From assembly GCA_902786245.1 (NCBI GenBank), contig CADABS010000031.1, forward strand, positions 1-46,465: 46,465 nt of DNA, given 5' to 3'. This document shows positions 7,675 through 27,093 of the stretch, piece by piece. Below the pieces are notes generated by a model, which saw nothing but the letters and a program-made list of their open reading frames with translations, had not been told where the DNA came from and did not search any database. Every line of letters begins with the position of its first letter. The stretch's first letter is position 1. A program made the translations under genes and the position numbers. The DNA comes from an uncultured Erysipelotrichaceae bacterium. Its GTDB lineage: Bacteria > Bacillota_I > Bacilli_A > Erysipelotrichales > Erysipelotrichaceae.

Positions 7675-8732
7675 ATGGAGAAAAGAATATGCATATTTCT
7701 GATCTGCGCACTGGCGCTTGCTGCCTGCACAGGCAGACACCAGGAACCTCCCGTCAATGACAGTACAACAGATACGGCAAGAGACACCAGCCATGAAGAA
7801 ATCACCTGGGATCTGATCCAGATGGTACAGCATAATACAGAGGTAAAGACTCTGCTGGAAAAGTCCATTGCCAAAGCCTATGCGATCAATCCCGATCCGG
7901 ATACCAATCCGGTGGATTGCCTGGAGAACTATTATGCATTTATCGACAGAACTGTGAAATGCATGCCATGGGAAATCGATCCCTCACAGGAACACAGCAG
8001 TCTCTATGACCGTATCGATCAGTCCATGGGCTGTCTGTACTTTGTCATTGACCAGCCTCTGGAAGAACTGGAAGACAAAGGATACTTCCATAACTCGATC
8101 ATGTATCATGAACCGTTCAGGACATGGTGGACGCAGTTTCTTTCCGTCAACGGTCAGTTCCTGAACAGCGAAGCATCCTGGAATGATACGTATTATAAAA
8201 ATGCATTGAAAGAAGAAGGCTTTGGACTGGATACAGGTTTATATGAAAATCCATCGAACTGGCACAACTTCAATGATTTCTTTGCCAGAAAACTGAAAGA
8301 TCCGTCCCTGCGTCCGGTTGAAGCAGAGAGAAGATGATCATGTCGTTGTTTCACCGGCGGAACATGCAGGTATTGCCATCAAGACGGGTACCCTGACGGA
8401 TGTATCGGTACTGTTATAAAGAATACTATTCCGAAAGCATCGGCTGGCAATCGCTGGAGACAAGGGGCATTGTCATTGTCGAAACTCAAAGCAATGCATT
8501 ATGTGCAATCATACCGGTAGGCATGTGTCAGGTATCATCAGTCAATTTCGAGGAAAGCGTCAAAGCCGGAACAGAAGTGAAAAAGGGCGATCCGCTGGGA
8601 TATTTCCTGTTCGGAGGAAGTGATATCATCATGGTATTTTCCGGAGATACAGGTTTTGAAATGACCGCAGAAAAAGATGTTCATCTCGATATGGGCAGTG
8701 CATACGGTACAATAAATACAGGAGATCAGTAA
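7675..8732 (+). pseudogene. Broken phosphatidylserine decarboxylase-like lipoprotein gene
   Basis: The first frame (7675-8337) encodes a lipoprotein signal ending in Cys18 and then the N-terminal part of a phosphatidylserine-decarboxylase-family protein, ending NWHNFNDFFARKLKD. It stops at 8335. Shifting by one base continues the family sequence (DDHVVVSPAEHAGIAIKTGT) until a stop near 8416. The third piece (to 8732) carries the family end, with GMCQVSSV and KKGDPLGYFLFGGSDII; the usual LGST-like pyruvoyl site is replaced by FGGSD. The middle segment that would hold the HxxxHxPV-like core is missing. So the gene has a frameshift and an internal deletion. The first ORF could still make a stable lipoprotein fragment. 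Confidence 0.65.
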
Positions 8733-8734
8733 TC

Positions 8735-11419
8735 ATGGGACTGTTTACAAAGACAAAGGGAAACGGATGGAATTTTGATAAAAACTCAGGCACATTGTAC
8801 ATTGACGGAAAGCTTGACAATGTAAGTAAGTATTTTAATAAAATTGCGGATAAAGTCAGAAGAATCGTCTGCCGCAAAGGTGCAGTTCTGACTGCCGGAA
8901 CAGAACTTTTCAAAGATATGAGAAATCTTGAAACAGCGGATCTGTCTGCCCTGGATGTTTCCGGGTGCACTTCCTTCGGTTATATGTTTTCCTGCTGTAC
9001 GTCTCTGAAAGTCCTGGATCTTTCTTCCTGGGATATCAGAAATGCAAGAAACATGGAACGTATGTTCTTTCTCTGCCGGTCCCTGAAAAAAATCATCACC
9101 GGACCACAGTGGATCCCGCACAAAGTTACAGACACGGGCAGTATGTTCAACAGCTGCGGCAGCCTGGAGACAATCGAACAGGCGATGCTGGATCTTCCTT
9201 CCATCACTTACTGCAGTTACATGTTCCAGGACTGCGGCAGTCTGCGCACTCTGAATCTCCGGGGAATGGATGTACGGAACGCAGTTTATATGAGAAGCAT
9301 CTTCAGCGGCTGTAAAAATCTCAGAGAACTCGATCTGAGCGGCTGGCAGATCCCGGATCAATGCAATACAGAGAATATGTTTGAAGGGCTGTCCGGAAGC
9401 GTCCGCATCTATGCGGATGATGACAGTGTCATCAGACTGCTTCCGGATGGAATACAGGCACGCAGCCATGAACCGGAACAGAAACAATGCCCAGTCAAAG
9501 ACAAAGAAACACCGTCTGTGAATGAACCGGAACCGAAACAAAGCACTGTCAAAGACAAAAAAGCACAGTCTGTGAATAAACCGAAACCGAAAGAAAACAC
9601 CGTCAAAGACAAAGAAACACAGTCTCTGCATGCACAGGAACAGAATGACAGGATCATTCAGGGCAGCGGCTGGTCCTTTGATCCGGATACCGGTGCGCTG
9701 ACATTCAGCGGCATCATTGAAAAAGTACCGGATGCATTTGGATCCTTTGCGGAACAGGTCCTGACCGTCAAAGCACTGAAAGGGGCAGCTTTGAGAAATG
9801 GCAGGAATATGTTTAAAGGAATGAAAAATCTTGCCCTGGCAGATCTGAGGAAGCTGGATGTATCACAGTGTACAGATTTCACGTATATGTTCGGTTCGTG
9901 CAATGCCCTGAAGGTTCTTGATCTTTCTTCCTGGGATTTCACCAATGCAGCAACAGTCAATCATATGTTCTCGGGATGTACTGCCCTGGAAGAAATCATT
10001 ACCGGACCGAAATGGATTCCTCGGAATTTATCCACTGCCGTATTCATGTTCTCCGGATGCCGGAAACTGCAGGAACTCGATTTCTCTGCCTGGGCAGAAG
10101 CTCCGTTGGAGAATACCTGCGGCATGTTCTACGGATGTACATCTCTGAGGGAACTGGATCTTTCAATGATCCATACAGCGAAAATCAAAAACATTGGCAA
10201 TATGTTCAACGGCTGCACAGACCTGCAGTCTCTCCATCTGGACGGGTGGGATGTTTCCGCTGCCGAAAAAATGGATGCCATGTTCAAAGAATGTGGATCC
10301 CTGACGGAACTGAATCTCAGCGGCTGGGATGTTTCCGGTGTATCTGATATGACCTGGATGTTCGGCGGCTGCGAAAAACTGAAAACTCTGGATCTGCGGG
10401 GATGGCGGATCGATAAAAGAACAGATACCGAAAATATGTTCCGCAGTCTGCCGAAAACGGTACACATCTGTGCGGATGATAAGAGTGTTGTGAATTCTCT
10501 GCCGGACTATCTCAAAGTCAAGGCTGTTCAGGCGGAAATACAGACATCAGAAAAGGAAAGAACAGCACCTTCGGTGAAAGAAACAGAGCCAGCACATGCA
10601 GTGCCGGAAAACATAGAGACAGGATTGCCGGAAGATGCATATTCTCTGTATCTCAGAGCCATTGGCTACTGCAACGGAACGGAAGGACTGCCGCAGGACC
10701 TCAATCAGGCACTGCAGACTGCTCTGGCTGCCAAAGAACATGCAGAAGGGCAGCTGTTGAACAATATCCGGTATCTGATTGCACAGATCGGATGGATGCA
10801 CACGTATGACCGTGAGGATGAATCAGAAGATATGATCGGTCAAAGGAGAGATGCAGCAAAGAACGGCGATACGAATGCCCTGCTGGATCTCGCGAACCGT
10901 CTGTACTTCGGATCGGAATATGTGGACAAAGACCCGGAGGAAGCGCTGATCTGTGCGGTACAGATAAAATACAGCAGATTCTCCGAGAATAAGCTATATG
11001 CGGAAAATCTGCTCGAAGTTCTTAGGGAAAACAGTCTGTATGATACACTGGCAGCCGGACTGGAAGCGGAAAAATCCGGTTATCTGGCAGAAGCATTCAA
11101 ACAATACGAGAAAGCTGCTCTGCAGGGAAGTGCAGCAGGCATGTGGTATCTTTCCCGGATGTACCGGGATGGTAAAGGGACTGCCGCAAACCTGAAGAAA
11201 TCCGATGCATTCAAAGAACTGGCGGCCTCTCTCGGCTGGGGTGAAGCTCTGTTTACAGATGCGAAAGACAGTTTCAATACATACATTAAAGGCGGCAGCG
11301 CAGAAGAAGCGCGGGATAAGATACGCAAAGCAGAGGCATACGGACATCGCCTGAGTAAAAACCAGAATCATGAACTCGGAAAGATGGAGGTGCGGGTGCT
11401 GCAGGTTCTGGGGTACTGA
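8735..11419 (+). CDS. Two-module BspA-like (DUF285) protein with Sel1-like C-terminus
   Basis: An 894-residue protein without a signal peptide. Residues about 9-245 and 309-592 are two similar modules, each opening with a GxGWxFDxxTGxLxxxG strand followed by DUF285 leucine-rich repeats of the form MFxxCxxLxxLDLSxWD. Between them is a Lys/Glu/Pro linker with three 18-residue repeats beginning VKDK. Residues about 629-894 look like Sel1/TPR helical repeats (ALICAVQIKY, AAGMWYLSRMYRDGKG). DUF285 proteins in this phylum are usually secreted surface proteins; lack of an export signal suggests a cytoplasmic scaffold. GGAGAT precedes the start, two bases after the broken upstream gene. Confidence 0.75.
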   Translation: MGLFTKTKGNGWNFDKNSGTLYIDGKLDNVSKYFNKIADKVRRIVCRKGAVLTAGTELFKDMRNLETADLSALDVSGCTSFGYMFSCCTSLKVLDLSSWDIRNARNMERMFFLCRSLKKIITGPQWIPHKVTDTGSMFNSCGSLETIEQAMLDLPSITYCSYMFQDCGSLRTLNLRGMDVRNAVYMRSIFSGCKNLRELDLSGWQIPDQCNTENMFEGLSGSVRIYADDDSVIRLLPDGIQARSHEPEQKQCPVKDKETPSVNEPEPKQSTVKDKKAQSVNKPKPKENTVKDKETQSLHAQEQNDRIIQGSGWSFDPDTGALTFSGIIEKVPDAFGSFAEQVLTVKALKGAALRNGRNMFKGMKNLALADLRKLDVSQCTDFTYMFGSCNALKVLDLSSWDFTNAATVNHMFSGCTALEEIITGPKWIPRNLSTAVFMFSGCRKLQELDFSAWAEAPLENTCGMFYGCTSLRELDLSMIHTAKIKNIGNMFNGCTDLQSLHLDGWDVSAAEKMDAMFKECGSLTELNLSGWDVSGVSDMTWMFGGCEKLKTLDLRGWRIDKRTDTENMFRSLPKTVHICADDKSVVNSLPDYLKVKAVQAEIQTSEKERTAPSVKETEPAHAVPENIETGLPEDAYSLYLRAIGYCNGTEGLPQDLNQALQTALAAKEHAEGQLLNNIRYLIAQIGWMHTYDREDESEDMIGQRRDAAKNGDTNALLDLANRLYFGSEYVDKDPEEALICAVQIKYSRFSENKLYAENLLEVLRENSLYDTLAAGLEAEKSGYLAEAFKQYEKAALQGSAAGMWYLSRMYRDGKGTAANLKKSDAFKELAASLGWGEALFTDAKDSFNTYIKGGSAEEARDKIRKAEAYGHRLSKNQNHELGKMEVRVLQVLGY
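9494..9655 (+). repeat. Three tandem 54-bp coding repeats (linker)
   Basis: Units begin at 9494, 9548 and 9602 with GTCAAAGACAAAGAAACA-like sequence and encode VKDKETPSVNEPEPKQST-type peptides. They form the charged linker between the two DUF285 modules and could change copy number by slippage without breaking the frame. Confidence 0.8.
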
Positions 11420-11432
11420 TCATCAGAGAAAG

Positions 11433-11458
11433 CCTGTCGGAGGACAGGTTTTCTTTCG
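11433..11458 (+). terminator. Rho-independent terminator
   Basis: CCTGTC/GACAGG stem with a GGAG loop followed by TTTTCTTTC, directly after the DUF285 gene. Confidence 0.8.
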
Positions 11459-11473
11459 TCTGCTGGAAGCAGT

Positions 11474-12091
11474 ATGATGCATGGTATGGAAATCATACGG
11501 TATCTGAAAAAACATCCGGAGCTGAGCATCCGGATGAGTGCCCTGTGGAGTCTTGTCTACGGAGTATTCAACCTGTCCCTGTCTCTTACCCGGAAATCAT
11601 ACTGGTATCTGGCAATAGGCGCGTATTTTCTGATCCTGGGAACCGGCAGACTGACAGCTGCCGCAGTGAAGGGAAAACTGAAGACAAAACTGCGTATGAC
11701 AGCAGGCATGATCCTGTTTCTTGCCGCTGTCATTGCCGGACTGATGTATATGACGATCCACGAAGTTGTCTATCCGGAAGGAAACAGAATGATCGTGATC
11801 GGGCAGGCTGCGTTTGTTTTCACCATGCTCGGTGCGGCTGTATATAACATGATTCTTTCCATCCGCAGAAAAGACCGTACGGTGATCATGGCCAGGAATC
11901 TGTCCATGACAGCAGCCGTCGGTGCAGTGCTTTCGCTGCAGAGAACGATGCTGGGTACATTCGGCAATGCCGCAGATACATTCAATATTCAGATCGGTGC
12001 ATATACCGGGGCAGGAGCAGTGATCATTCTTTTCCTTCTGGCATATGATCTGCTCAGGGAATCAAAGAAAAAGATAGGGGAATCAGAATGA
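11474..12091 (+). CDS. Uncharacterised multi-pass membrane protein
   Basis: A 205-residue protein with about six predicted membrane helices (for example ALWSLVYGVFNL, MILFLAAVIAGLMY and a final AVIILFLLAYDLL) and a Lys-rich cytoplasmic tail. I do not recognise the family. It overlaps the next gene by ATGA, so the two are translationally coupled. The start is either 11474 or the in-frame ATG at 11486; the upstream GGAAG suits the first. Confidence 0.65.
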   Translation: MMHGMEIIRYLKKHPELSIRMSALWSLVYGVFNLSLSLTRKSYWYLAIGAYFLILGTGRLTAAAVKGKLKTKLRMTAGMILFLAAVIAGLMYMTIHEVVYPEGNRMIVIGQAAFVFTMLGAAVYNMILSIRRKDRTVIMARNLSMTAAVGAVLSLQRTMLGTFGNAADTFNIQIGAYTGAGAVIILFLLAYDLLRESKKKIGESE

Positions 12092-17051: not shown

Positions 17052-19100
17052 ATGAATATGGGTGCGAAATGGATCTGGTATCCGTCGGATTTTGAACTGT
17101 ATCACAATATGATCCTGCATAACCGCAGAGAAGAATATGACTATATCTTTCCTGTCATGTGGCATATACAGAGACCGGAATCGGTATGCTGCTTTTCTAA
17201 AGAAGTGACATTGAAGAAGGAACAGATAGTATTTGTACATGCCAAAGGCATGGGCTATGTGAAGATCGGTGAAAAGAAGATTGCACCGGTAAATACAGAA
17301 GTATTGCTGCCGGCAGGTACATATATACTCGGTGCGGAAGTAACAAACCTGGAGACGTTCCCGGCATTGTTCATTGACGCAGATGAAGTATGTACCGATG
17401 AAAGCTGGGTGGTTCATTTCAATGGTGCAGCCCGTAAACATGCATCCTGTGAGCCTGCTTTTACTGAAGCAGAAGATGATCCGGCAGTATTCCCGTTCTG
17501 CTATCAGAGTATTGTGCCGAAGAGTACAGAAGAGATCAATGGCGGTATCCTCTATAACTTCGGAGTGGAAAGCTTCGGTATCATTGCAATCAGCCGTACC
17601 CTGGACATTGGAAGAATTGATATTTATTACGGTGAATCCAGAGAAGAAGCACTGGATGAGAAATGGGCATATCTCCGGGAACATATTCCTGCCGGTGATG
17701 AAGCCTATACATGCAGGGCCAGGGCATTCCGTTATATCTATATCAGAAGTGAAAAGGGTATACCTTCGATCAAAGCAAAGGAAGAGTATCTGCCAATCAA
17801 AGATATTGCCAGCTTTACATGCGATGATACACAGCTGCCTGCCATCTGGGATATATGTGCAAGGACACTGCATTTAAATGCAAGAGAGTTTTATCTTGAC
17901 GGTGTTAAAAGAGACCGCTGGGTATGGTCAGGAGATGCCTATCAGTCATATATGATTGGCAGATATCTGTTCAATGACAGGGATATCACAAAGAGAACGA
18001 TCCGGGCATTATTGGGCAAAGGTCCGTACTTTCAGCACATCAATGTCATCAATGACTATTCGATGTATATGTTTGCGGCAGTCAGAGAATACTATGAAGC
18101 GACCGCAGACGTACAATTTGTTCTGTCCATCAAAGAACAACTGACATACCTCTATGAATTCATCACATCAAGACTCGATGAAGAAACAGGATATGTCGTT
18201 GCCAGAGACGGAGACTGGATCTTCATTGACTGGGCAGACATCGATAAAGACGGACCCTTATGTGCAGAACAGATCCTGCTGTATCAGGTATATCAGTCTA
18301 TGGCAGTCATAGAAGATATATGCAAAGACTATCATGAAGACTTCGGCATTGTCGGAAGGCATCACTATGCCGCAAGTTCCACCAATGCCGTACCGTTTAA
18401 AACAAAACAGAAAGAAAACAATTACCTGGAGAAAGCAGAAGCACTGAAACAGAACATCCTGCGTGACTTCTGGGACAAAGACAGCCATGCCTTTATCGAT
18501 ACCTATGCATCAGGAAAGAACCATATTACTAGACATGCCAATATCTTTGCCATTCTCTATGACTTCGCCGATGAAGCCATGCAGAAAGAAATCGTGGAAC
18601 ATGTACTGCATAACCCTGATATCGATGAAATCACAACACCGTATTTCAAACTGTATGAACTGATGGCACTGGGCAAGACAGGACATATGGCAGAGGTACA
18701 GGACTATATCGACAGCTACTGGGGCGGTATGATCGACAACGGCGCAACCAGTGCCTGGGAAGCATATGATCCAAAGAAACACGGAACAGAACACTACAAT
18801 ATGTACGGCGATCCCTATGACTGTTCCTTATGCCATGCCTGGGGCAGCGGTCCCATCTATCTCTTAACAAGATACTGTGCAGGAGTATATCCCACCTCAC
18901 CCGGGGCAAGAACATTTGCCATCGCACCGGATCCCGGCAGATATACATTCTTTGATACAACCGTACCCATCGGTACAGGAACAGTCACAATACACTACAA
19001 AGATAATCACATCACAGTCATTACAGACATACCGGGAGGCACATTATACTGGAAGGGACAACAAATACCGGTACCGCCGAATACAGAAATCACAGTATAA
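17052..19100 (+). CDS. GH78-type alpha-L-rhamnosidase-like glycoside hydrolase
   Basis: A 682-residue cytoplasmic protein with the layout of family GH78: N-terminal beta-sandwich modules (about 1-255), an (alpha/alpha)6 barrel (about 260-595) and a C-terminal beta domain (about 600-682). The barrel opening LDGVKRDRWVWSGDAYQSY matches the conserved DxxxRDRxxWxGDA segment that carries acidic active-site residues. Substrate could be a rhamnoside; other sugars are possible in this family. It is shorter than typical members (about 900 residues). AAAGGATGA precedes the start. It probably forms its own transcript; no sugar transporter is adjacent. Confidence 0.75.
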   Translation: MNMGAKWIWYPSDFELYHNMILHNRREEYDYIFPVMWHIQRPESVCCFSKEVTLKKEQIVFVHAKGMGYVKIGEKKIAPVNTEVLLPAGTYILGAEVTNLETFPALFIDADEVCTDESWVVHFNGAARKHASCEPAFTEAEDDPAVFPFCYQSIVPKSTEEINGGILYNFGVESFGIIAISRTLDIGRIDIYYGESREEALDEKWAYLREHIPAGDEAYTCRARAFRYIYIRSEKGIPSIKAKEEYLPIKDIASFTCDDTQLPAIWDICARTLHLNAREFYLDGVKRDRWVWSGDAYQSYMIGRYLFNDRDITKRTIRALLGKGPYFQHINVINDYSMYMFAAVREYYEATADVQFVLSIKEQLTYLYEFITSRLDEETGYVVARDGDWIFIDWADIDKDGPLCAEQILLYQVYQSMAVIEDICKDYHEDFGIVGRHHYAASSTNAVPFKTKQKENNYLEKAEALKQNILRDFWDKDSHAFIDTYASGKNHITRHANIFAILYDFADEAMQKEIVEHVLHNPDIDEITTPYFKLYELMALGKTGHMAEVQDYIDSYWGGMIDNGATSAWEAYDPKKHGTEHYNMYGDPYDCSLCHAWGSGPIYLLTRYCAGVYPTSPGARTFAIAPDPGRYTFFDTTVPIGTGTVTIHYKDNHITVITDIPGGTLYWKGQQIPVPPNTEITV

Positions 19101-19101
19101 A

Positions 19102-20355
19102 ACTATAAATACCAAACAAGAAAAATATGAATTGCGTTCACAAGATATCATTCGTGTATACGGAACCGGATTATCGGTTTCATTGGTCAAAGGTAAGCGG
19201 AGCACAGTAAGATATCGAAATCCGGCCAATGGAGAGATTATTACCCTGTCATATAATCCTTCCGAGATCAGAGTGCCGACCGTTTCGCAAAAACCGGATA
19301 ATGTTCTGACATTACAGAAGATCGGCGGTAAAACCGACTATGAATATGTATTCGACGCCAAATATAAATTGAATCCGTCGTTACCGGGCACGGATTATTA
19401 CGAAAACATCGATCATACTCCCGGACCTCAAACGGATGATATTAATACAATGCACCGTTATAGAGATGCTATCGTATATCGGAATGATGCATCTCCATAT
19501 GAAAGAACAATGTTCGGAGCATATGTATTATTTCCATACCAAAATGAAGAAGAGTATAAGAATCACAGATTCTATAAAAGCATAGAACAGGTCAATATCG
19601 GCGGACTTCCGTTTTTACCTACAGCGACTAAGCTGGTGACAAAAATGCTTGATGAATTGATTTCCGATTCACCTGATTCGGCTTTTGAAAGGGCAATTCT
19701 GCCGAGAGGTATAGAAAACAAACTTGCTAAAGTCGATTGGAGTAAAAGAGATGTTTTGATCGGTACGCTGCGGAACAGAGAGCAGCTTACAGCTTGCCTG
19801 GAACATAAGTTTTATCATATACCTGTATCAAGAATCGATGAGGATCATTTGCCGATCCATTATGTTGCAATATACCAGACAAAAGCATTGTTCGGTTCGG
19901 AAGCGAAAATCGAATACTATGGCGAAGTGAAATCAACACGAATTGTAAAGCGTGATGACATTTCGGAGATTCCTAAGGATTCAGATGAACTGTATTACAG
20001 GTTTGATATTAAAAACTGGAAAAAACTGGATCGTCCGATTGTTCCCAAGGAACGCGGTTTCATTAATGAGTTCACGAATATGTTTCTGTTGAGACACAGT
20101 TCGCAGGTACCGGAGTTGTTATTACAATCAGAAGAAGAATACAGGTTTTATACAGAACTGAAACGAAGAACAGATGCATCAGTTATTAACGAAGAAGATC
20201 CTGCATCGGGTTTTGAAGTTAATGGCAGCAGAATTGCATTTGAAAACGGACAGATTCTTGTGATCTCAAACGGAGAGATAATTGAACAGTGTTCTATCAG
20301 TGAGTTTGCTAAAACGCCGAACATGGTATTCAGGAGATTGTTTTCAGTAATTTAG
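19102..20355 (+). pseudogene. 5'-truncated DUF2357 / PD-(D/E)XK nuclease
   Basis: An open frame begins exactly after the rhamnosidase stop and has no ATG or ribosome site for the first 115 codons. It reads YEYVFDAKYKL, then TDDINTMHRYRDAIVY and GAYVLFPY, the signature of PD-(D/E)XK nucleases in the DUF2357 family (McrC-like partners in type IV-style restriction). A second region (VLIGTLRNREQL.. to KLDRPI) looks like a PUA/EVE-type base-recognition fold, an inference from pattern. The N-terminal half and the first active-site helix are absent, so 417 codons of an original of perhaps twice that size remain. A+T-rich composition differs from the rhamnosidase gene and marks the left edge of the island. 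Confidence 0.65.
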
Positions 20356-20435: not shown

Positions 20436-23400
20436 ATGGCTAATTTGAGTTTATTGACAGGAACACCATGGCACGTTGAAAAGTGGCATTTAGCTGAAGG
20501 GGATACACGTCGGCATTGTGCCAGATGTATTTATTATGAAAAGCAAAATGAAAAGTTTTGTTCTCGCATCGGAAGGAAATGTTTTGGCTCTGCACATTGT
20601 GAATACTATTCAGAAGAAGCACATCAGGATATTGCAGTAAAACCGTTCAGCAGTTCTTTAACACCACTCGGTACTTCTAAAAATGACATTGCAAATACCG
20701 CAAAAGCAAAGGACGAATCCAAATCCGAATCGGAAAATGTAAACCTTGCAAAAGGATACTCGAATTTTGCGTTCATCGGATCGGTAAATTCGGAAATTGA
20801 GCAAGTGGCAAGAGATGCCGAATACTATTTGGGTTCCGATGCAAATGTCGCTATATATAAGATCGGCAGACTTGGAGAATTAATTGTTAACAGTGTATTC
20901 GATAAGGAGAATATATCCTATTTGAAGAGCGAAAAACAGGTTGATTCGATTAATGCTTTATATAACAGGAATTTACTTCCTAAGGAAATAGTTGCTTCGT
21001 TAACTAAAATCCGTATTGGAAGAAATAAGGCTGTTCATGAAAACTATGATTCTGAAAAAAGTGCCAGAACACTGCTTAAAAACGCTTATGTGATTTGCTG
21101 CTGGTTTATGAAACAGTACGGGTCATCACTTTTTGATCCGACAAAAATGACATATATCGAACCGTTTTATGAAGGTGAGAAGTTTGAAAAAGCTGCTAGT
21201 TATATTCTTCCGCCGGCGGTAAAAGAAGAAATCAAGAAAGACAGCACTGTTATTGAGAATAAAACCAAAGTTAATGATGCTAAAGATAATGAAGAAACTG
21301 CAAAACAGATTGCAAAAGTTGAGAAACTGTTAGATATCGAAACCGTTGAATTCTCTTTCTCTGATGCCATCTTAATTGAAATGCGTTGTGTTCCTCAATT
21401 AGACAGCAAAATCCACATCGGAATTGATGAATTATACATAGAGAATAATCTTGAAGCACCTTTAGAAAATACAATCCTTGAAATTCAATCGAATCCCGGA
21501 GTTTGTTTACCGTATACCCGTAAGATTGTCAGTGTTAGCGGTCATAGGGGATTAACAATTCGAAATATTGATCTGACCGTTGATGCGGATCAGTTGGGTA
21601 AACTGAAAAAGAATCCGTATTTATATCTTTCCGTAGTATTGAGACAAGGTGAAGAAATCATTGCTGAAGAGAGGGCTGATGTTGAACTTGGTGATGATGT
21701 ATTAGAAGCCATTAATCTTGATGCTGCGCAGGATATCCAAATGTCAGGAGAATCCGATCCGGAGAACATGTATGTCAATCCGATATTGGATGAGGAACAG
21801 AAAAGAATATACATTCCATGCGGACTGGGTAACAGTGATAATGGTTTCTTTATATACGGAATAAAGAAAACACGTTTATGCAATTATTTGCAAGCTGATA
21901 TATATGCATTGGTTTATAACTATTTACTTCGTGAATCCAGGATGCAAGCGGATTATTTACCAGTGTATCTAAAGGATCTTTCTTTGTCATATCAATTGGA
22001 TTACAGAACTGTTTTCAGGCTTTCAGTTGTAATACTGCAAATGATTAAAAACAATTATGTCAAAAACAATTCGATATCCGTTAAGTATATCGGAAACAAA
22101 GATGATTTTAAGTATGCTGCAGAATTGATAAATGATTATGCCGCAAGATTCGCACGATTGTTACATGTAAGGTTTACTCCGCTTGCTATAAAGAATGAGA
22201 GTGCGGGAATTCAGGTTTCAATAAATCAAAGAGCTACGATTTATACTATGAATAATACTGAACTCAGAACTAACGCCAGAGAGATGTGGTTCGGTCATAA
22301 ACTGAAATACAATTTACAAGACACGGATAAGAACGATCTGTTATACATTCTGCATGAGATTTCGACGTTTAGTGTTTTCAGAGAGGGTCAATTAGAAGCA
22401 CTTACGGCAATGCTGAACACCGAAAAGAACGCAGTCAGCATCATGCCGACCGGAAGCGGAAAGTCTTTGGTTTTCTATATGGCTTCTTTACTGCAACCGT
22501 TACCTGTAATGATTGTTGAGCCGACTGATATTTTAATCACCGATCAGATAAGAAATCTGAAGAATATACATAGAATCGATAATATTGCTCATTTGAAAGT
22601 TACCGCTGATTTTGATTTTTCTGATTATGATATTCACAACAATCTGAATTACTTAACCCCGGAAACACTAACGAATAGGAATTTATTCAGTTCATTTATA
22701 CATAAGTTTAATTTAGGTGAGAATTTGAGATCTGAAAAAATCAGTCCCGGCCCGATGATGGCATATTTCATTATGGATGAGGTTCATTGTATTTCGAATT
22801 GGGGCCATGATTTCAGACCGGAATATCTGATGATATCCAGAAACCTGGAAAAGTACCTGGATCACGTACAGATTTGGGGATTTACGGGAACCGCTAATTA
22901 TACTGTTGTTGAAGATCTTCAAAAGCAACTTTCCATTCCGACAGAGAATTTCTTTTCTCCGATTCAATTTGAAAAATATAATGTGTCTTACGATTTCAGA
23001 GAATGTAATACACAGGAAGATATGTACCTAAATGCAGCCTCGATATTAGCAGAGTGTAATGCAAGAGGTGAAAGAACAATTATCTTTACCAAAAACGATC
23101 AGATTACTGAGAATGTGGCGCGCGCAGTTGATTATAATGCTATTCCTTTTAGTCATAATGATTTAAGAGCATATACCGATTTTGCCGAAGGACACATTAA
23201 TTCTATGATTTCATCTGAAGAATTAGGGATTGGCATCAGTTTTCCGAATGTCAGAAATATTATTCATTTCGGCTTGCCGCTTTCAAAAAATGAGTATGTC
23301 CAGGAAATCGGACGTGCCGGTCGTGCAAACGAACGTGTCAGATCATACGTATTGTATTTGGAGAATAATTCTGAGAATGTGGCATCCGGGTTGCTGGACA

Positions 23401-23819
23401 GAAATCTGAATATTGCCGAACTGCCGAAAATGTATTCACAGATGGATAATGATTATTCGGATATTTACCGCAAGTTGATGGGGAATATTTCGGATAAAGA
23501 CAAGTTATTAAAAGATCTTATAGACTTAAAGAACACACTGCTCGGTAAATTCCAATCATCTGTTCTTCTTGAATATGACGATAATGATCTGAAAGAAGCT
23601 AAAAAGAATCTGTACATGCTGTATGTTTGCGGATTTATCGAAGATTGGTATCCGTATGAAAAAGTACCTGACGAAAACATAACAATCGCTTTTGTGCTGG
23701 TAATGCAGCTTTACCCTTTTTCTTTGCCGAAACCGATTGATTATATGTGTCTATGTTTCTGCAGCCGCTCTTTGCAAAAACATTCATTCTTTCTTCTACA
23801 AGTTCAGACAGATACTTAA
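20436..23819 (+). CDS. RecQ-like DEVH helicase with HEPN-like domain, 5' part of an inversion-split gene
   Basis: As it stands the frame is 1127 codons, but true helicase sequence stops at 23671; the last 49 residues are antisense to the ATPase gene. In order: a Cys-rich N-terminus (CARCIYYE..C..C..C, residues about 28-60), a DUF4145/HEPN-like domain (about 140-225) with RNKAVH (Arg196, His201), an Ig-like domain (about 300-425), and a RecQ-type core with Walker A TGSGKS (Lys676), DEVH (781-784), TGTANY and QEIGRAGR (956-963). It probably unwinds DNA in an ATP-driven way as part of a defence-like complex. Adding the piece at 25952-25238 gives 1316 codons in frame. AAAGGA precedes the start. 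Confidence 0.8.
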   Translation: MANLSLLTGTPWHVEKWHLAEGDTRRHCARCIYYEKQNEKFCSRIGRKCFGSAHCEYYSEEAHQDIAVKPFSSSLTPLGTSKNDIANTAKAKDESKSESENVNLAKGYSNFAFIGSVNSEIEQVARDAEYYLGSDANVAIYKIGRLGELIVNSVFDKENISYLKSEKQVDSINALYNRNLLPKEIVASLTKIRIGRNKAVHENYDSEKSARTLLKNAYVICCWFMKQYGSSLFDPTKMTYIEPFYEGEKFEKAASYILPPAVKEEIKKDSTVIENKTKVNDAKDNEETAKQIAKVEKLLDIETVEFSFSDAILIEMRCVPQLDSKIHIGIDELYIENNLEAPLENTILEIQSNPGVCLPYTRKIVSVSGHRGLTIRNIDLTVDADQLGKLKKNPYLYLSVVLRQGEEIIAEERADVELGDDVLEAINLDAAQDIQMSGESDPENMYVNPILDEEQKRIYIPCGLGNSDNGFFIYGIKKTRLCNYLQADIYALVYNYLLRESRMQADYLPVYLKDLSLSYQLDYRTVFRLSVVILQMIKNNYVKNNSISVKYIGNKDDFKYAAELINDYAARFARLLHVRFTPLAIKNESAGIQVSINQRATIYTMNNTELRTNAREMWFGHKLKYNLQDTDKNDLLYILHEISTFSVFREGQLEALTAMLNTEKNAVSIMPTGSGKSLVFYMASLLQPLPVMIVEPTDILITDQIRNLKNIHRIDNIAHLKVTADFDFSDYDIHNNLNYLTPETLTNRNLFSSFIHKFNLGENLRSEKISPGPMMAYFIMDEVHCISNWGHDFRPEYLMISRNLEKYLDHVQIWGFTGTANYTVVEDLQKQLSIPTENFFSPIQFEKYNVSYDFRECNTQEDMYLNAASILAECNARGERTIIFTKNDQITENVARAVDYNAIPFSHNDLRAYTDFAEGHINSMISSEELGIGISFPNVRNIIHFGLPLSKNEYVQEIGRAGRANERVRSYVLYLENNSENVASGLLDRNLNIAELPKMYSQMDNDYSDIYRKLMGNISDKDKLLKDLIDLKNTLLGKFQSSVLLEYDDNDLKEAKKNLYMLYVCGFIEDWYPYEKVPDENITIAFVLVMQLYPFSLPKPIDYMCLCFCSRSLQKHSFFLLQVQTDT

Positions 23820-24504
23820 CAGCACTGATCGCATCATGTGTATTTGTTATTATCGGTGCTGCGAGATGTGCTGCATCGTGATATTCGGCAAATTCGATCT
23901 TCTTAGTATCAACAAGAAGCAGCTTCAGTTCTTCCGGATCCGAGTGCGTCAAAAACGTGCAGATCATCGCATGCAAAAACAGTGATTTGCCGGTACCCGT
24001 AGAGCCGCCGATCAGCATTGGCGATGATTCACATAAAAAGTCCGTTACTACGCAGCAATAGTCATCCTGTCCGAGAAAATACAGTAATGGGTGATCATCA
24101 CCTTCTTCAGGCGGACTGGTAAAAGCATGCCAAAGAGAAAAGACCGTCCTAACAGGATTGCTAATAATGACTGCAATGGTAAAATCTTCCGCAGGCTGCG
24201 AAACAATTTCCAGATTGTTTACTGACAGCTGCAGCTGTAATGTTGACCTTAATCGGTTTAACTGCCCCGCTGTCACACTTGTAAACACTCGCAATATGAA
24301 TGCAGTTCTATTCGAACTGACCCTCGTATCGATCAGTTCAGACCTGATTCCGTTCAGCCTTAAAACCTCAACTAATTGCTGAGACTTCTGTTTGCTGTAT
24401 TCACAATTCGATATCACATCTTTGTCATTACTGTGATCATCTACTAAATCAATGATGTTCTTATATATTTTTGCCATATCTTTGAACGATGATTCCAGAA
24501 ACAT
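23635..24504 (-). CDS. FtsK/SpoIIIE-type ATPase, N-terminal half of an inversion-split gene
   Basis: The minus-strand frame holds the first half of an FtsK-family motor: a helical and beta region (1-140) and the P-loop GGSTGTGKS (Lys173), followed by LLLVDTKKIEFAEYHDAAHL and the AISAVKYLSELVEERM helix. The frame is genuine down to 23665; beyond that it is antisense to the helicase. The Walker B half is absent here and lies on the plus strand from 25960. FtsK/HerA motors pump DNA; this one has no N-terminal membrane helices. The start at 24504 lacks a good ribosome site, and 24505-24601 contains no other gene. Confidence 0.75.
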   Translation of the reverse strand: MFLESSFKDMAKIYKNIIDLVDDHSNDKDVISNCEYSKQKSQQLVEVLRLNGIRSELIDTRVSSNRTAFILRVFTSVTAGQLNRLRSTLQLQLSVNNLEIVSQPAEDFTIAVIISNPVRTVFSLWHAFTSPPEEGDDHPLLYFLGQDDYCCVVTDFLCESSPMLIGGSTGTGKSLFLHAMICTFLTHSDPEELKLLLVDTKKIEFAEYHDAAHLAAPIITNTHDAISAVKYLSELVEERMNVFAKSGCRNIDTYNQSVSAKKKGKAALPAQKRLLCFRQVLFHTDTNLR

Positions 24505-25959
24505 TGAAGATTTGTTTGTGTCAACATTTTGGATAAATTCCTATGATTTGCATCATAAAATTCATCCCCTTCTATTGATTTAACTAATTTAATTGAATAA
24601 CTTATAACACGATTCCGAGAATACCGATAATGAGATTAATGACTAAAAGTGCGATCAGAATATTCTGTTTTCCGCTTACCCCTTTTTCAATTTGACTTAT
24701 TGAAGTTTGGACCTGATTAAGTACCTGTTCAGAATTACTAATAATCTTGTCATACCGTGTACTCAACAGTTCTTCACACTTGCGTAATTCATTCTCGGTT
24801 GAAGCCATCTGACTTATATACTTATTCGTTTCTTCTTCAAATACCCGACCAACACTAATAATACTCTTATTCATCTCTGTCTTAGTTTCAGCAAGCAATT
24901 CCGAATACTTATCAGTTAAAGCGGAATGATATTGTTTTACAGCATTTGTCGAATTGTTTAAATCGGCATCGTATTTACTTAAAATATTCTTATTAGTGTC
25001 AATGAGTTTCTTATTTAGTTCTTCATTAACATTCTGAAGTTTGTAAGGAATGCCTTGAATTTCCGAAATGATTTTCTTGGATTCATTATCAAAACTCTCT
25101 GTTTGTGCTCTAACAGCTTCGCTAACACTCTTAATCCCGACAATCAGGTCTTTTGACGCGAGAATATTTTGCTCAAATTCTTTTATTTCATCCTCTAATT
25201 GTTTTACATTATCGAACATACTTACAGTCTCCTTTGATCATGAAAATAATGTATTCAGTCTTTTTGCTATAACAGCCAGGAATATGTCATCTATTGCTTC
25301 TGTTTTATAAATTTTATCAATAAACTTATAAACATCTATATCATGCCTTTTCCCGTATCTTTCCAGATAATTCGTGATCTCCAGTTTGCCTTCGATCTCG
25401 CAAGCGGGATACATTTTCCAGAAGAACTCATTCAATACCGGCTTATGCTCTGAAGGTATAGATTTCATCAGTCGATCCAGTCTGCTTTGATTCAATCTGC
25501 CACCGGCTTTTAATTCATTACCAAGTAATAGCAAGTCTAGTTTATATGAGTACTTATTACTGTTGATTCTCTCTATATTCGCAATTGTAGACCTATTGAA
25601 TCCGACTATGGATTTTTCGAGAATCTGTCTCAAATCCATTGAATTATATTCATTTTCTTCATCAATCATTACAGTAAACGGTAATGCAAAGAATTCCTTT
25701 ATCTGGTCCGTAATTTCTTCCGAATTCATATTGTTTCCATGGCTGATAAACTCATACAGATCCATAAACTCTTCATTATGGCGATAGAGATATTTGTCAT
25801 AGTACCAATTTATGTAGATACTGAGTATCTCATCGGCCGATTTAGCCAAAGCGGTTTTTACAAGTTCTCTCTGATTACCGTCTCCCAGGGAACTTAAATA
25901 ACTTCGGAATCTGTTTTGCATAGCTGATTTCAGGTGATTCTCATCACGATCTTCAGGTA
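23665..25959. other. Inverted segment splitting two genes
   Basis: TACCTGA at 23665-23671 and TCAGGTA at 25953-25959 form an inverted pair, with TGAAAA-like sequence beside each. Inverting the 2295 bp on paper joins helicase codons Tyr-Glu-Lys-Val-Pro to Glu-Asp-Arg-Asp-Glu-Asn, and ATPase codons Phe-Arg-Gln-Val to Phe-Ser-Arg-Ile-Phe-Leu-Pro-Tyr-Ile. Both joins are in frame (3951 and 1974 bases in total). The segment carries one whole gene, the coiled-coil protein. Nothing in the window looks like an invertase. Confidence 0.8.
24602..25219 (-). CDS. Tail-anchored coiled-coil protein
   Basis: A 205-residue protein, nearly all long coiled coil (about 1-175), ending in one membrane helix (ILIALLVINLIIGILGIVL) at the very C-terminus. 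It has no signal peptide, so the coiled coil faces the cytoplasm. AAGGAGA lies just before the start and the helicase tail ends only 18 bases upstream on the same strand, so the two would be one operon in the alternative orientation. No family is recognised. It probably tethers the helicase and the ATPase to the membrane or acts as a sensor; this is inferred from order and topology. Confidence 0.7.
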   Translation of the reverse strand: MFDNVKQLEDEIKEFEQNILASKDLIVGIKSVSEAVRAQTESFDNESKKIISEIQGIPYKLQNVNEELNKKLIDTNKNILSKYDADLNNSTNAVKQYHSALTDKYSELLAETKTEMNKSIISVGRVFEEETNKYISQMASTENELRKCEELLSTRYDKIISNSEQVLNQVQTSISQIEKGVSGKQNILIALLVINLIIGILGIVL

Positions 25960-25966
25960 TTTTCAC
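25238..25966 (-). CDS. C-terminal part of the split helicase
   Basis: A 242-codon frame opening at a GTG with the residues KIPEDRDENHLKSAMQ. It is helical and charged and has no enzyme motif. It starts at the inversion junction: from 25952 it continues the helicase exactly in frame, so it is best read as the last 238 codons of that gene, not a separate gene. No ribosome site precedes the GTG. Its stop lies 18 bases before the coiled-coil gene. In the present orientation it is probably not translated, and it is on the strand opposite to the helicase body. Confidence 0.75.
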   Translation of the reverse strand: MKIPEDRDENHLKSAMQNRFRSYLSSLGDGNQRELVKTALAKSADEILSIYINWYYDKYLYRHNEEFMDLYEFISHGNNMNSEEITDQIKEFFALPFTVMIDEENEYNSMDLRQILEKSIVGFNRSTIANIERINSNKYSYKLDLLLLGNELKAGGRLNQSRLDRLMKSIPSEHKPVLNEFFWKMYPACEIEGKLEITNYLERYGKRHDIDVYKFIDKIYKTEAIDDIFLAVIAKRLNTLFS

Positions 25967-25974
25967 GTATATTC

Positions 25975-27093
25975 TTGCCTTATATAGTGATGATTATTGA
26001 TGACATCACTGATTTGCTGCTGAATTATCGTGAAGAGTTTGAAAACCTGTATCTGAAGATAATCAATCAGGCAAACAGAGCCGGTGTATATTTAGTACTG
26101 AGCGCCCAATTGCCTTCTGCTGCAGTTATCCCTACATCGATCGTCAGAGCTTCAGCAATGCGGATTTCCTTTTCCGTAACCTCCCAAAGAGACAGCATGA
26201 TTATTCTTGAAGAAAAAGGTGCTGATTATTTAGCCGGAAATGGAGAATTTATATACAGAAATCTGAAGCAGAATGAAATTGAGAGGCTGCAGGGACTGTT
26301 TGTATCAGACAGTGAAATATCAAAGATATCAGACTATGCAAGGAAACTCGGCAAACCTGCGTATTTAGATCAATTCATTCTGATAGGAGCCGATTATTCG
26401 ACGGGCAGTATATTGATTAATGATGCTGTCACAGATCCTTTATATGATGAAATTGTAAGCAGGGTTAAAAAGAATGAAAATGTAACAACCTCATTCCTTA
26501 TGAGGGAATACGGAACCGGATATCACCGTGCAGCCGGACTGATGGATGCTTTGCGAGAAAACGGAATTATAGAAAACTGTAGGACTGTATCATCCGGTGA
26601 CACTGTTACTGCAGTAAGCACTGAGCAGACAACGGAGGATCTTAAAGTCCCTGAAATGAAATCACAGGAAACAGCACAGACGGAAGTGCCGCCACAGCAA
26701 GAACCTGATTTGGATTATTCCATGACATTGAAACTGGTCGGTGTGGAAGAAACGGTTTCAGATAATCAGACAGAGGAGAGCCGGAAACCGATTCGTAAAG
26801 ATATAGCAGATAAATCGGGAAAAGGAACTGAGAACAAGCAGGCTTCTGTAAAGATCGGTGACTGGATGGCCATGATAACGTTTATTCTGTTCGGTTTTGT
26901 ATTCCTCTGTGTTCTTACTGACAGTATCTGGCACCTGGTCATAGTACTGTTCAGCATATTCGGTTTTATGCTTTCTGCACCTTTCTTAAGAGGGCGGGTA
27001 ATGGATGTTATCAAAAACGATAATCTGCGATATGCATTGGTTGTATTGTGCTATTTCATTATCATAGTCTCTTATCTGAACAGAATACCCTGA
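25975..27093 (+). CDS. FtsK/SpoIIIE-type ATPase, C-terminal half of the split gene
   Basis: The frame is open from 25960, with TTG 25975 the first possible start. It begins at Walker B (LPYIVMIIDDITDLL; Asp294-Asp295 of the rebuilt protein) and continues with AGVYLVLSAQLPS, a sensor-like segment. A gamma-type winged helix follows (DPLYDEIV..TTSFLMREYGTGYHRAAGLMDALRENGII), the DNA-reading domain of FtsK/SpoIIIE. After an acidic linker come about three membrane helices (rebuilt residues about 582-655). C-terminal membrane anchoring is unusual, since FtsK has it at the N-terminus. Without the P-loop half this fragment cannot hydrolyse ATP. Confidence 0.75.
   Translation: MPYIVMIIDDITDLLLNYREEFENLYLKIINQANRAGVYLVLSAQLPSAAVIPTSIVRASAMRISFSVTSQRDSMIILEEKGADYLAGNGEFIYRNLKQNEIERLQGLFVSDSEISKISDYARKLGKPAYLDQFILIGADYSTGSILINDAVTDPLYDEIVSRVKKNENVTTSFLMREYGTGYHRAAGLMDALRENGIIENCRTVSSGDTVTAVSTEQTTEDLKVPEMKSQETAQTEVPPQQEPDLDYSMTLKLVGVEETVSDNQTEESRKPIRKDIADKSGKGTENKQASVKIGDWMAMITFILFGFVFLCVLTDSIWHLVIVLFSIFGFMLSAPFLRGRVMDVIKNDNLRYALVVLCYFIIIVSYLNRIP

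Follow-up and report, generated by a model that had tools for sequence, protein, structure and literature searches.

The gene order described here is best explained, with a probability of roughly three in four, by a recent, one-off illegitimate inversion within a defence-like gene cluster that is eroding. The inverted segment, about 2.3 kb long (2.29 kb), lies in a contig of an uncultured Erysipelotrichaceae bacterium (the window, that is, the whole stretch of 46,465 nucleotides that we analysed) and splits the genes for a RecQ-like helicase and an FtsK-like ATPase. Two features identify it as a gene-disrupting inversion: a single breakpoint pair brings both genes back in frame, and the genes run uninterrupted across both borders in relatives (the helicase in L042, L043 and L048, the ATPase in the FtsK proteins of the genus). 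An earlier note on this DNA had proposed an inversion splitting two genes of a co-directional row, and this proposal is borne out, as reversal restores both genes and relatives carry the joined helicase. The features concerned are as follows.

20436..23685, plus strand: RecQ-like helicase, 5' part (about residues 1-1083, the whole motor; DEAD and Helicase_C, relatives L042, L043 and L048)
23683..25976, no strand: inverted segment, best estimate (two profiles scored jointly for every breakpoint pair that keeps the frames)
23686..24504, minus strand: FtsK-like ATPase, 5' part, inside the inversion (alpha domain and Walker A; FtsK_SpoIIIE 1.6e-26, FtsK_alpha, FtsK alignment)
24602..25219, minus strand: complete coiled-coil protein of 205 aa with a C-terminal membrane helix, inside the inversion (26% identity to L042:10406-10906)
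25238..25974, minus strand: helicase, 3' part (about the last 245 residues), within the inversion (relatives)
25975..27093, plus strand: FtsK-like ATPase, 3' part, outside the inversion (Walker B, gamma domain and membrane segments; FtsK_gamma 4.3e-11, FtsK alignment)

Breakpoints placed by two independent profiles

The breakpoints were located by homology, with three clear helicase relatives on the helicase side. Specifically, the last base before the inversion (a) was varied from 23655 to 23720 and the last inverted base (b) from 25935 to 25994, and the frame-keeping pairs were scored with a helicase profile (L042, L043 and L048) and, separately, with a profile of the FtsK proteins of the genus. 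For both independent profiles the maximum is at a+b=49659, the outcome expected of a plain inversion in which no bases are lost. The best joint score, 1374.3 bits, is reached at a=23682-23685 with b=25977-25974; these pairs give identical products because of a shared 3-bp word, CAA/TTG, which is common to both breakpoints at the best-scoring position. Neighbouring solutions are only a few bits apart, which leaves an uncertainty of about 10 bp, with the left breakpoint at about 23682-23688, the right one at about 25971-25977 and their sum at 49659. No breakpoint pair that scores within 20 bits of the best shares a word longer than 3 bp at the crossover. A crossover at GTG (23694-23696) scores about 7 bits below the CAA position and was rejected.

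Reversal at these breakpoints yields a helicase of 1328 aa and an ATPase of 645 aa. The junction of the corrected helicase reads DWYPYEKVPDENITRIYVKIPEDRDENHLKS, and a join of the same a+b a few bases further gives a gap-free alignment to L043 from DWY to KS. The junction of the corrected ATPase reads KAALPAQKRLPYIVMIIDD, for which the FtsK counterpart is ALEKLPYIIVIIDE. The borders originally put forward, 23665 and 25959, are therefore displaced: both profiles place the breakpoints elsewhere, and the join at the 7-mers that define those borders scores 1344.5 bits, 30 bits lower than the best pairs.

A direct repeat that imitates inverted borders

The two 7-mers in question lie close to the breakpoints.

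23665..23671, plus strand: TACCTGA, the left border of the earlier note; one direct-repeat copy in the helicase gene
25953..25959, minus strand: TACCTGA (TCAGGTA on the plus strand), the right border of the earlier note; the other direct-repeat copy

Much of what had been said about them stands. Both 7-mers and the open frames are present, reversing 23665-25959 yields uninterrupted frames of 1316 and 657 codons, and the reversal sets the helicase, the 205-aa coiled-coil protein and the ATPase in one direction. An inversion exactly at TACCTGA/TCAGGTA, by 7-bp microhomology, would thus join in frame on either side. The rejoined helicase gene, however, contains two copies of TACCTGA in the same frame, which form a direct repeat with a spacing of 36 bp, and the copies look inverted after the flip because the break fell between them. 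Reversal at the 7-mers looks perfect because it acts as an in-frame deletion of 12 codons from the helicase together with an insertion of 12 codons into the ATPase. The protein comparisons reveal both changes: at the junction, L042 and L043 are longer by about 20 residues than the helicase joined at the 7-mers, including a conserved strand of the [IV]x[VIL][VIL]DI type that is also found in L048, and the ATPase joined at the 7-mers has 12 extra residues ahead of Walker B compared with FtsK. The 12 residues dropped from the helicase fit its relatives, and the 12 added to the ATPase are found in no FtsK at that place.

Such matches are also expected by chance. In a random control, an inverted 7-mer match between two 121-bp stretches of the window turned up in 63% of trials, so that TACCTGA as a border signal is no more than chance. 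As a further control, each of the 26,770 inverted 7-mer pairs of the window with a spacing of 0.5-6 kb was reversed in turn; the TACCTGA pair ranked third for newly made pairs of long ORFs, and the two pairs above it both fall within a single gene (17052-19100). With the 30-bit deficit summed over both genes, the chance expectation and a homology-placed crossover that shares at most 3 bp, the 7-mers can be set aside as the crossover, and an inversion at exactly these bases is very hard to credit. The motif around the originally proposed border has only two further genomic copies, each within unrelated coding sequence; they share no flanks, and a family of recombinase sites was accordingly rejected.

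The helicase and its coiled-coil partner in other genomes

The long helicase part contains a DEAD/Helicase_C motor by Pfam and a DUF4145-like stretch close to the N terminus. When the order, the phylum, plasmids and viral contigs were searched with single sequences, no helicase relative was found beyond the RecQ motor; plasmid tblastn matches cover only this motor or the DUF4145-like part, no near-identical DNA was found in plasmids, and a 23-base word beside the left border had no exact copy in the viral contigs. A weak match in G238 is an SRP GTPase-like gene, and hence a chance match. Relatives were found with broadened patterns, in which the query was paired with a conservatively substituted copy (A1, A3 and A4); these rows are search devices and not real proteins, and tblastn against the real sequence confirmed each match. 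The first relatives came from A4.

The helicases recovered are those of L041/L042, from a viral-contig collection (38% identity), of L043, a Ruminococcus metagenome-assembled genome (46% identity), and of L048 in genome G1167. As the earlier note had proposed, we searched relatives for the rejoined proteins: a single ORF spans the helicase junction in L042, L043 and L048 (3/3), and the ATPase aligns with the FtsK proteins of the genus. Conservation of the split arrangement, or absence of any homolog spanning the junctions, would have told against an inversion; the joined helicase is what relatives carry, and no relative with a split helicase was found. This bears on the idea that the pieces are separate working genes of this organism and not broken ones. 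Every fragment is an open frame, and the truncated helicase retains its motor domains, as this idea would have it. Against it, the ATPase is cut inside its motor, the split helicase has no counterpart in the relatives found and both 5' fragments end in foreign tails, the helicase ORF continuing in a foreign frame to 23819 and the ATPase ORF to 23635. We regard separate working genes as the least credible of the readings considered.

Directly behind the helicase, in the same direction, L042, L043 and L048 carry a gene for a coiled-coil protein with a C-terminal membrane helix, as does the window after reversal; in L049 (G819), whose helicase is more distant, a similar coiled-coil gene comes next. 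The conserved RecQ-like helicase/coiled-coil pair occupies 7692-10906 in L042, 9563-13403 in L043, 6890-11051 (minus) in L048 and 7777-11735 (minus) in L049. Its context varies: in L042 it lies behind two serine recombinases (two large serine-recombinase-like genes upstream of the helicase), and in L043 it precedes kinase, vWA and PP2C genes, neighbours that resemble the TerY-P triad. The coiled-coil protein of L048 is extended by MORN-like repeats, recognised by eye; the helicase of L049 carries a DUF559 nuclease-like domain.

The helicase is RecQ-like in its motor only, scoring 145.9 bits with the housekeeping RecQ model TIGR01389 against an NCBIfam equivalog cut-off of 640.2. It shares a RecQ-type motor with RecQ-like defence helicases (the PADLOC models DpdF and PsyrT), but these matches are limited to the motor, at window residues of about 631-978, and the N- and C-terminal parts differ. 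Across the PADLOC anti-phage models, the proteins gave only motor-domain matches (DpdF, PsyrT and SspH) and a DUF4145-like N-terminal match, and they were not assigned to any of these systems.

An FtsK-type motor cut between its Walker motifs

The two ATPase pieces together form a member of the FtsK/SpoIIIE family. PF01580 and PF09397 score above their cut-offs and PF17854 slightly below (19.8 versus 22.9), and by Pfam the plus-strand piece also carries the weak end of FtsK_SpoIIIE. Between about residues 20 and 484 the rejoined protein can be aligned, at 35% identity, with FtsK proteins of its genus, and the alignment runs directly across the junction. It shares the alpha, motor and gamma domains with these translocases and differs from them in lacking the N-terminal membrane part and in having membrane segments at the C terminus instead. 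It is a second FtsK-type gene of the genome, besides the housekeeping one on contig C8. In its present form, the ATPase has Walker A and Walker B on separate pieces and should thus be incapable of acting as a motor.

The gene order suggests that the ATPase belonged to the same operon as the helicase and the coiled-coil gene. No relative found has an FtsK-like gene next to the helicase/coiled-coil pair, and the FtsK-like paralogs L050, L051 and L053 from the genus do not adjoin such a pair. In L051 (5761-10980, minus strand, G058, same genus), the neighbour of an FtsK-like ATPase is a protein in which two CbxX-like AAA domains were recognised by eye; this row is not linked to the helicase pair.

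The first in-frame ATG of the window ATPase, at 24504, has no clear ribosome-binding site in 24505-24620 (minus strand); the best such site, AGAAGGGG, stands before an ATG of another frame, and the third frame reads KLVKSIEGDEFYDANHRNLSKMLTQTN. The 5' end may possibly carry an older lesion or have an unusual start.

A truncated mcrC-like gene next door

Directly upstream of the helicase lies a second damaged gene.

19107..20355, plus strand: mcrC-like gene, 3' remnant (PD-(D/E)XK part), DUF2357 half missing (PF04411 1.2e-41, no DUF2357)

By definition, McrC is DUF2357 plus PD-(D/E)XK (PMC11090510). The window gene has PF04411 and no DUF2357. In terms of McrBC type IV restriction, it keeps the PD-(D/E)XK part, about 63% identical to the 3' half of an McrC-like protein of G066, and differs from mcrC in that the DUF2357 half is missing. 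The G066 homolog, about 63% identical, is a protein of 820 aa in which DUF2357 occupies 122-364 and PDDEXK_7 occupies 388-543. A search of the rest of the genome did not recover the missing half. Homology to mcrC sets in no more than about 25 bp from the stop codon of the rhamnosidase-like gene (17052-19100), as though mcrB and half of mcrC had been deleted. The locus of G066 (L031, 4735-12131) holds an intact row of genes for an AAA (McrB-like) ATPase, an McrC-like protein, a MutH/Sau3AI-like protein and a cytosine methylase, with restriction types side by side.

With a truncated mcrC-like gene beside a split helicase and ATPase, a deletion and an inversion appear to have struck neighbouring genes, and both look recent, as the fragments have no internal stops. 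The McrC remnant and the company that such helicases keep suggest that the whole is a defence cluster.

Accident, switch or assembly artefact

Reversal returns both genes exactly in frame, as in phase-variable invertons, including intragenic ones (Hin-type, PhaseFinder and PhaVa sets), in which reversal of a segment likewise restores open genes. A programmed, reversible phase switch would have a site-specific recombinase flip the segment and turn the helicase and the ATPase on and off together. Invertons are described as flanked by inverted repeats of 10-40 nt (PMC11892184). By contrast, the ends of the window segment have no more than 3 bp in common at the crossover placed by homology, and 7 bp, at chance level, at the borders first proposed. 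The earlier note had advised looking for a recombinase elsewhere in the genome, and matches do exist there (7 to Phage_integrase and 5 to Resolvase) that could act in trans; all are on other contigs, and the 46-kb contig of the window has no match to either family. No allele of the other orientation was found among assembled sequences, the genome has no repeated site family, and the adjacent mcrC-like gene is broken as well. The phase switch that the earlier note had considered is thus unsupported and, in our view, very improbable. A reversible switch without inverted repeats, by a trans recombinase on dissimilar sites or by recurrent end joining, shutting the helicase and DNA-translocase genes of a defence-like row together, appears more improbable still.

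An assembly error or a mixed-strain consensus, in which the flip was never in the genome or only in a minor part of the population, has in its favour that the window is one of 102 contigs, with an estimated contamination of 2.8%. Two concerted false joins would be required, however, at borders sharing only 3 bp (or 7 bp). Shared words of 3 or 7 bp are far shorter than the k-mers of any assembler. Both products fit a plain inversion without a base lost, and the segment is single-copy in the genome. We consider an assembly error or such a consensus unlikely.

A microhomology accident, another of the suggestions made earlier, fits best, at other bases than the 7-mers. The illegitimate inversion that we favour resembles known non-homologous or micro-homologous inversions, in which two breaks are rejoined reversed with about 3 bp shared and genes are cut at both borders. 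It does not differ from them in kind; its one peculiarity is that a direct repeat within a gene mimics inverted-repeat borders.

Discussion

Under this illegitimate-inversion model, the ancestral row would have comprised three genes, for the RecQ-like helicase, the coiled-coil membrane protein and the FtsK-like ATPase. A single inversion of 2.29 kb, with one break in the helicase gene and the other in the ATPase gene, would have rejoined the ends reversed with about 3 bp or less shared, through illegitimate end joining or a replication-associated error, and would have needed no gain or loss of bases. Both genes would now be broken, the helicase keeping its motor and losing about 245 C-terminal residues. 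The lack of internal stops in the fragments would place the inversion in the recent past, and, together with the lost 5' half of the adjoining mcrC-like gene, the inversion would mark a defence-like cluster under erosion.

The event is of an ordinary kind and the illusion that it creates is instructive. An ordinary inversion can pass for a convincing 'phase switch' when the break falls between the copies of an in-gene direct repeat, which then mimic inverted-repeat borders, and the illusion is deepened here by the fact that reversal at the repeat copies is even in frame. The pair of a helicase and a coiled-coil membrane protein, which recurs in several genomic contexts, is possibly an undescribed defence module and merits study as a candidate of this kind.
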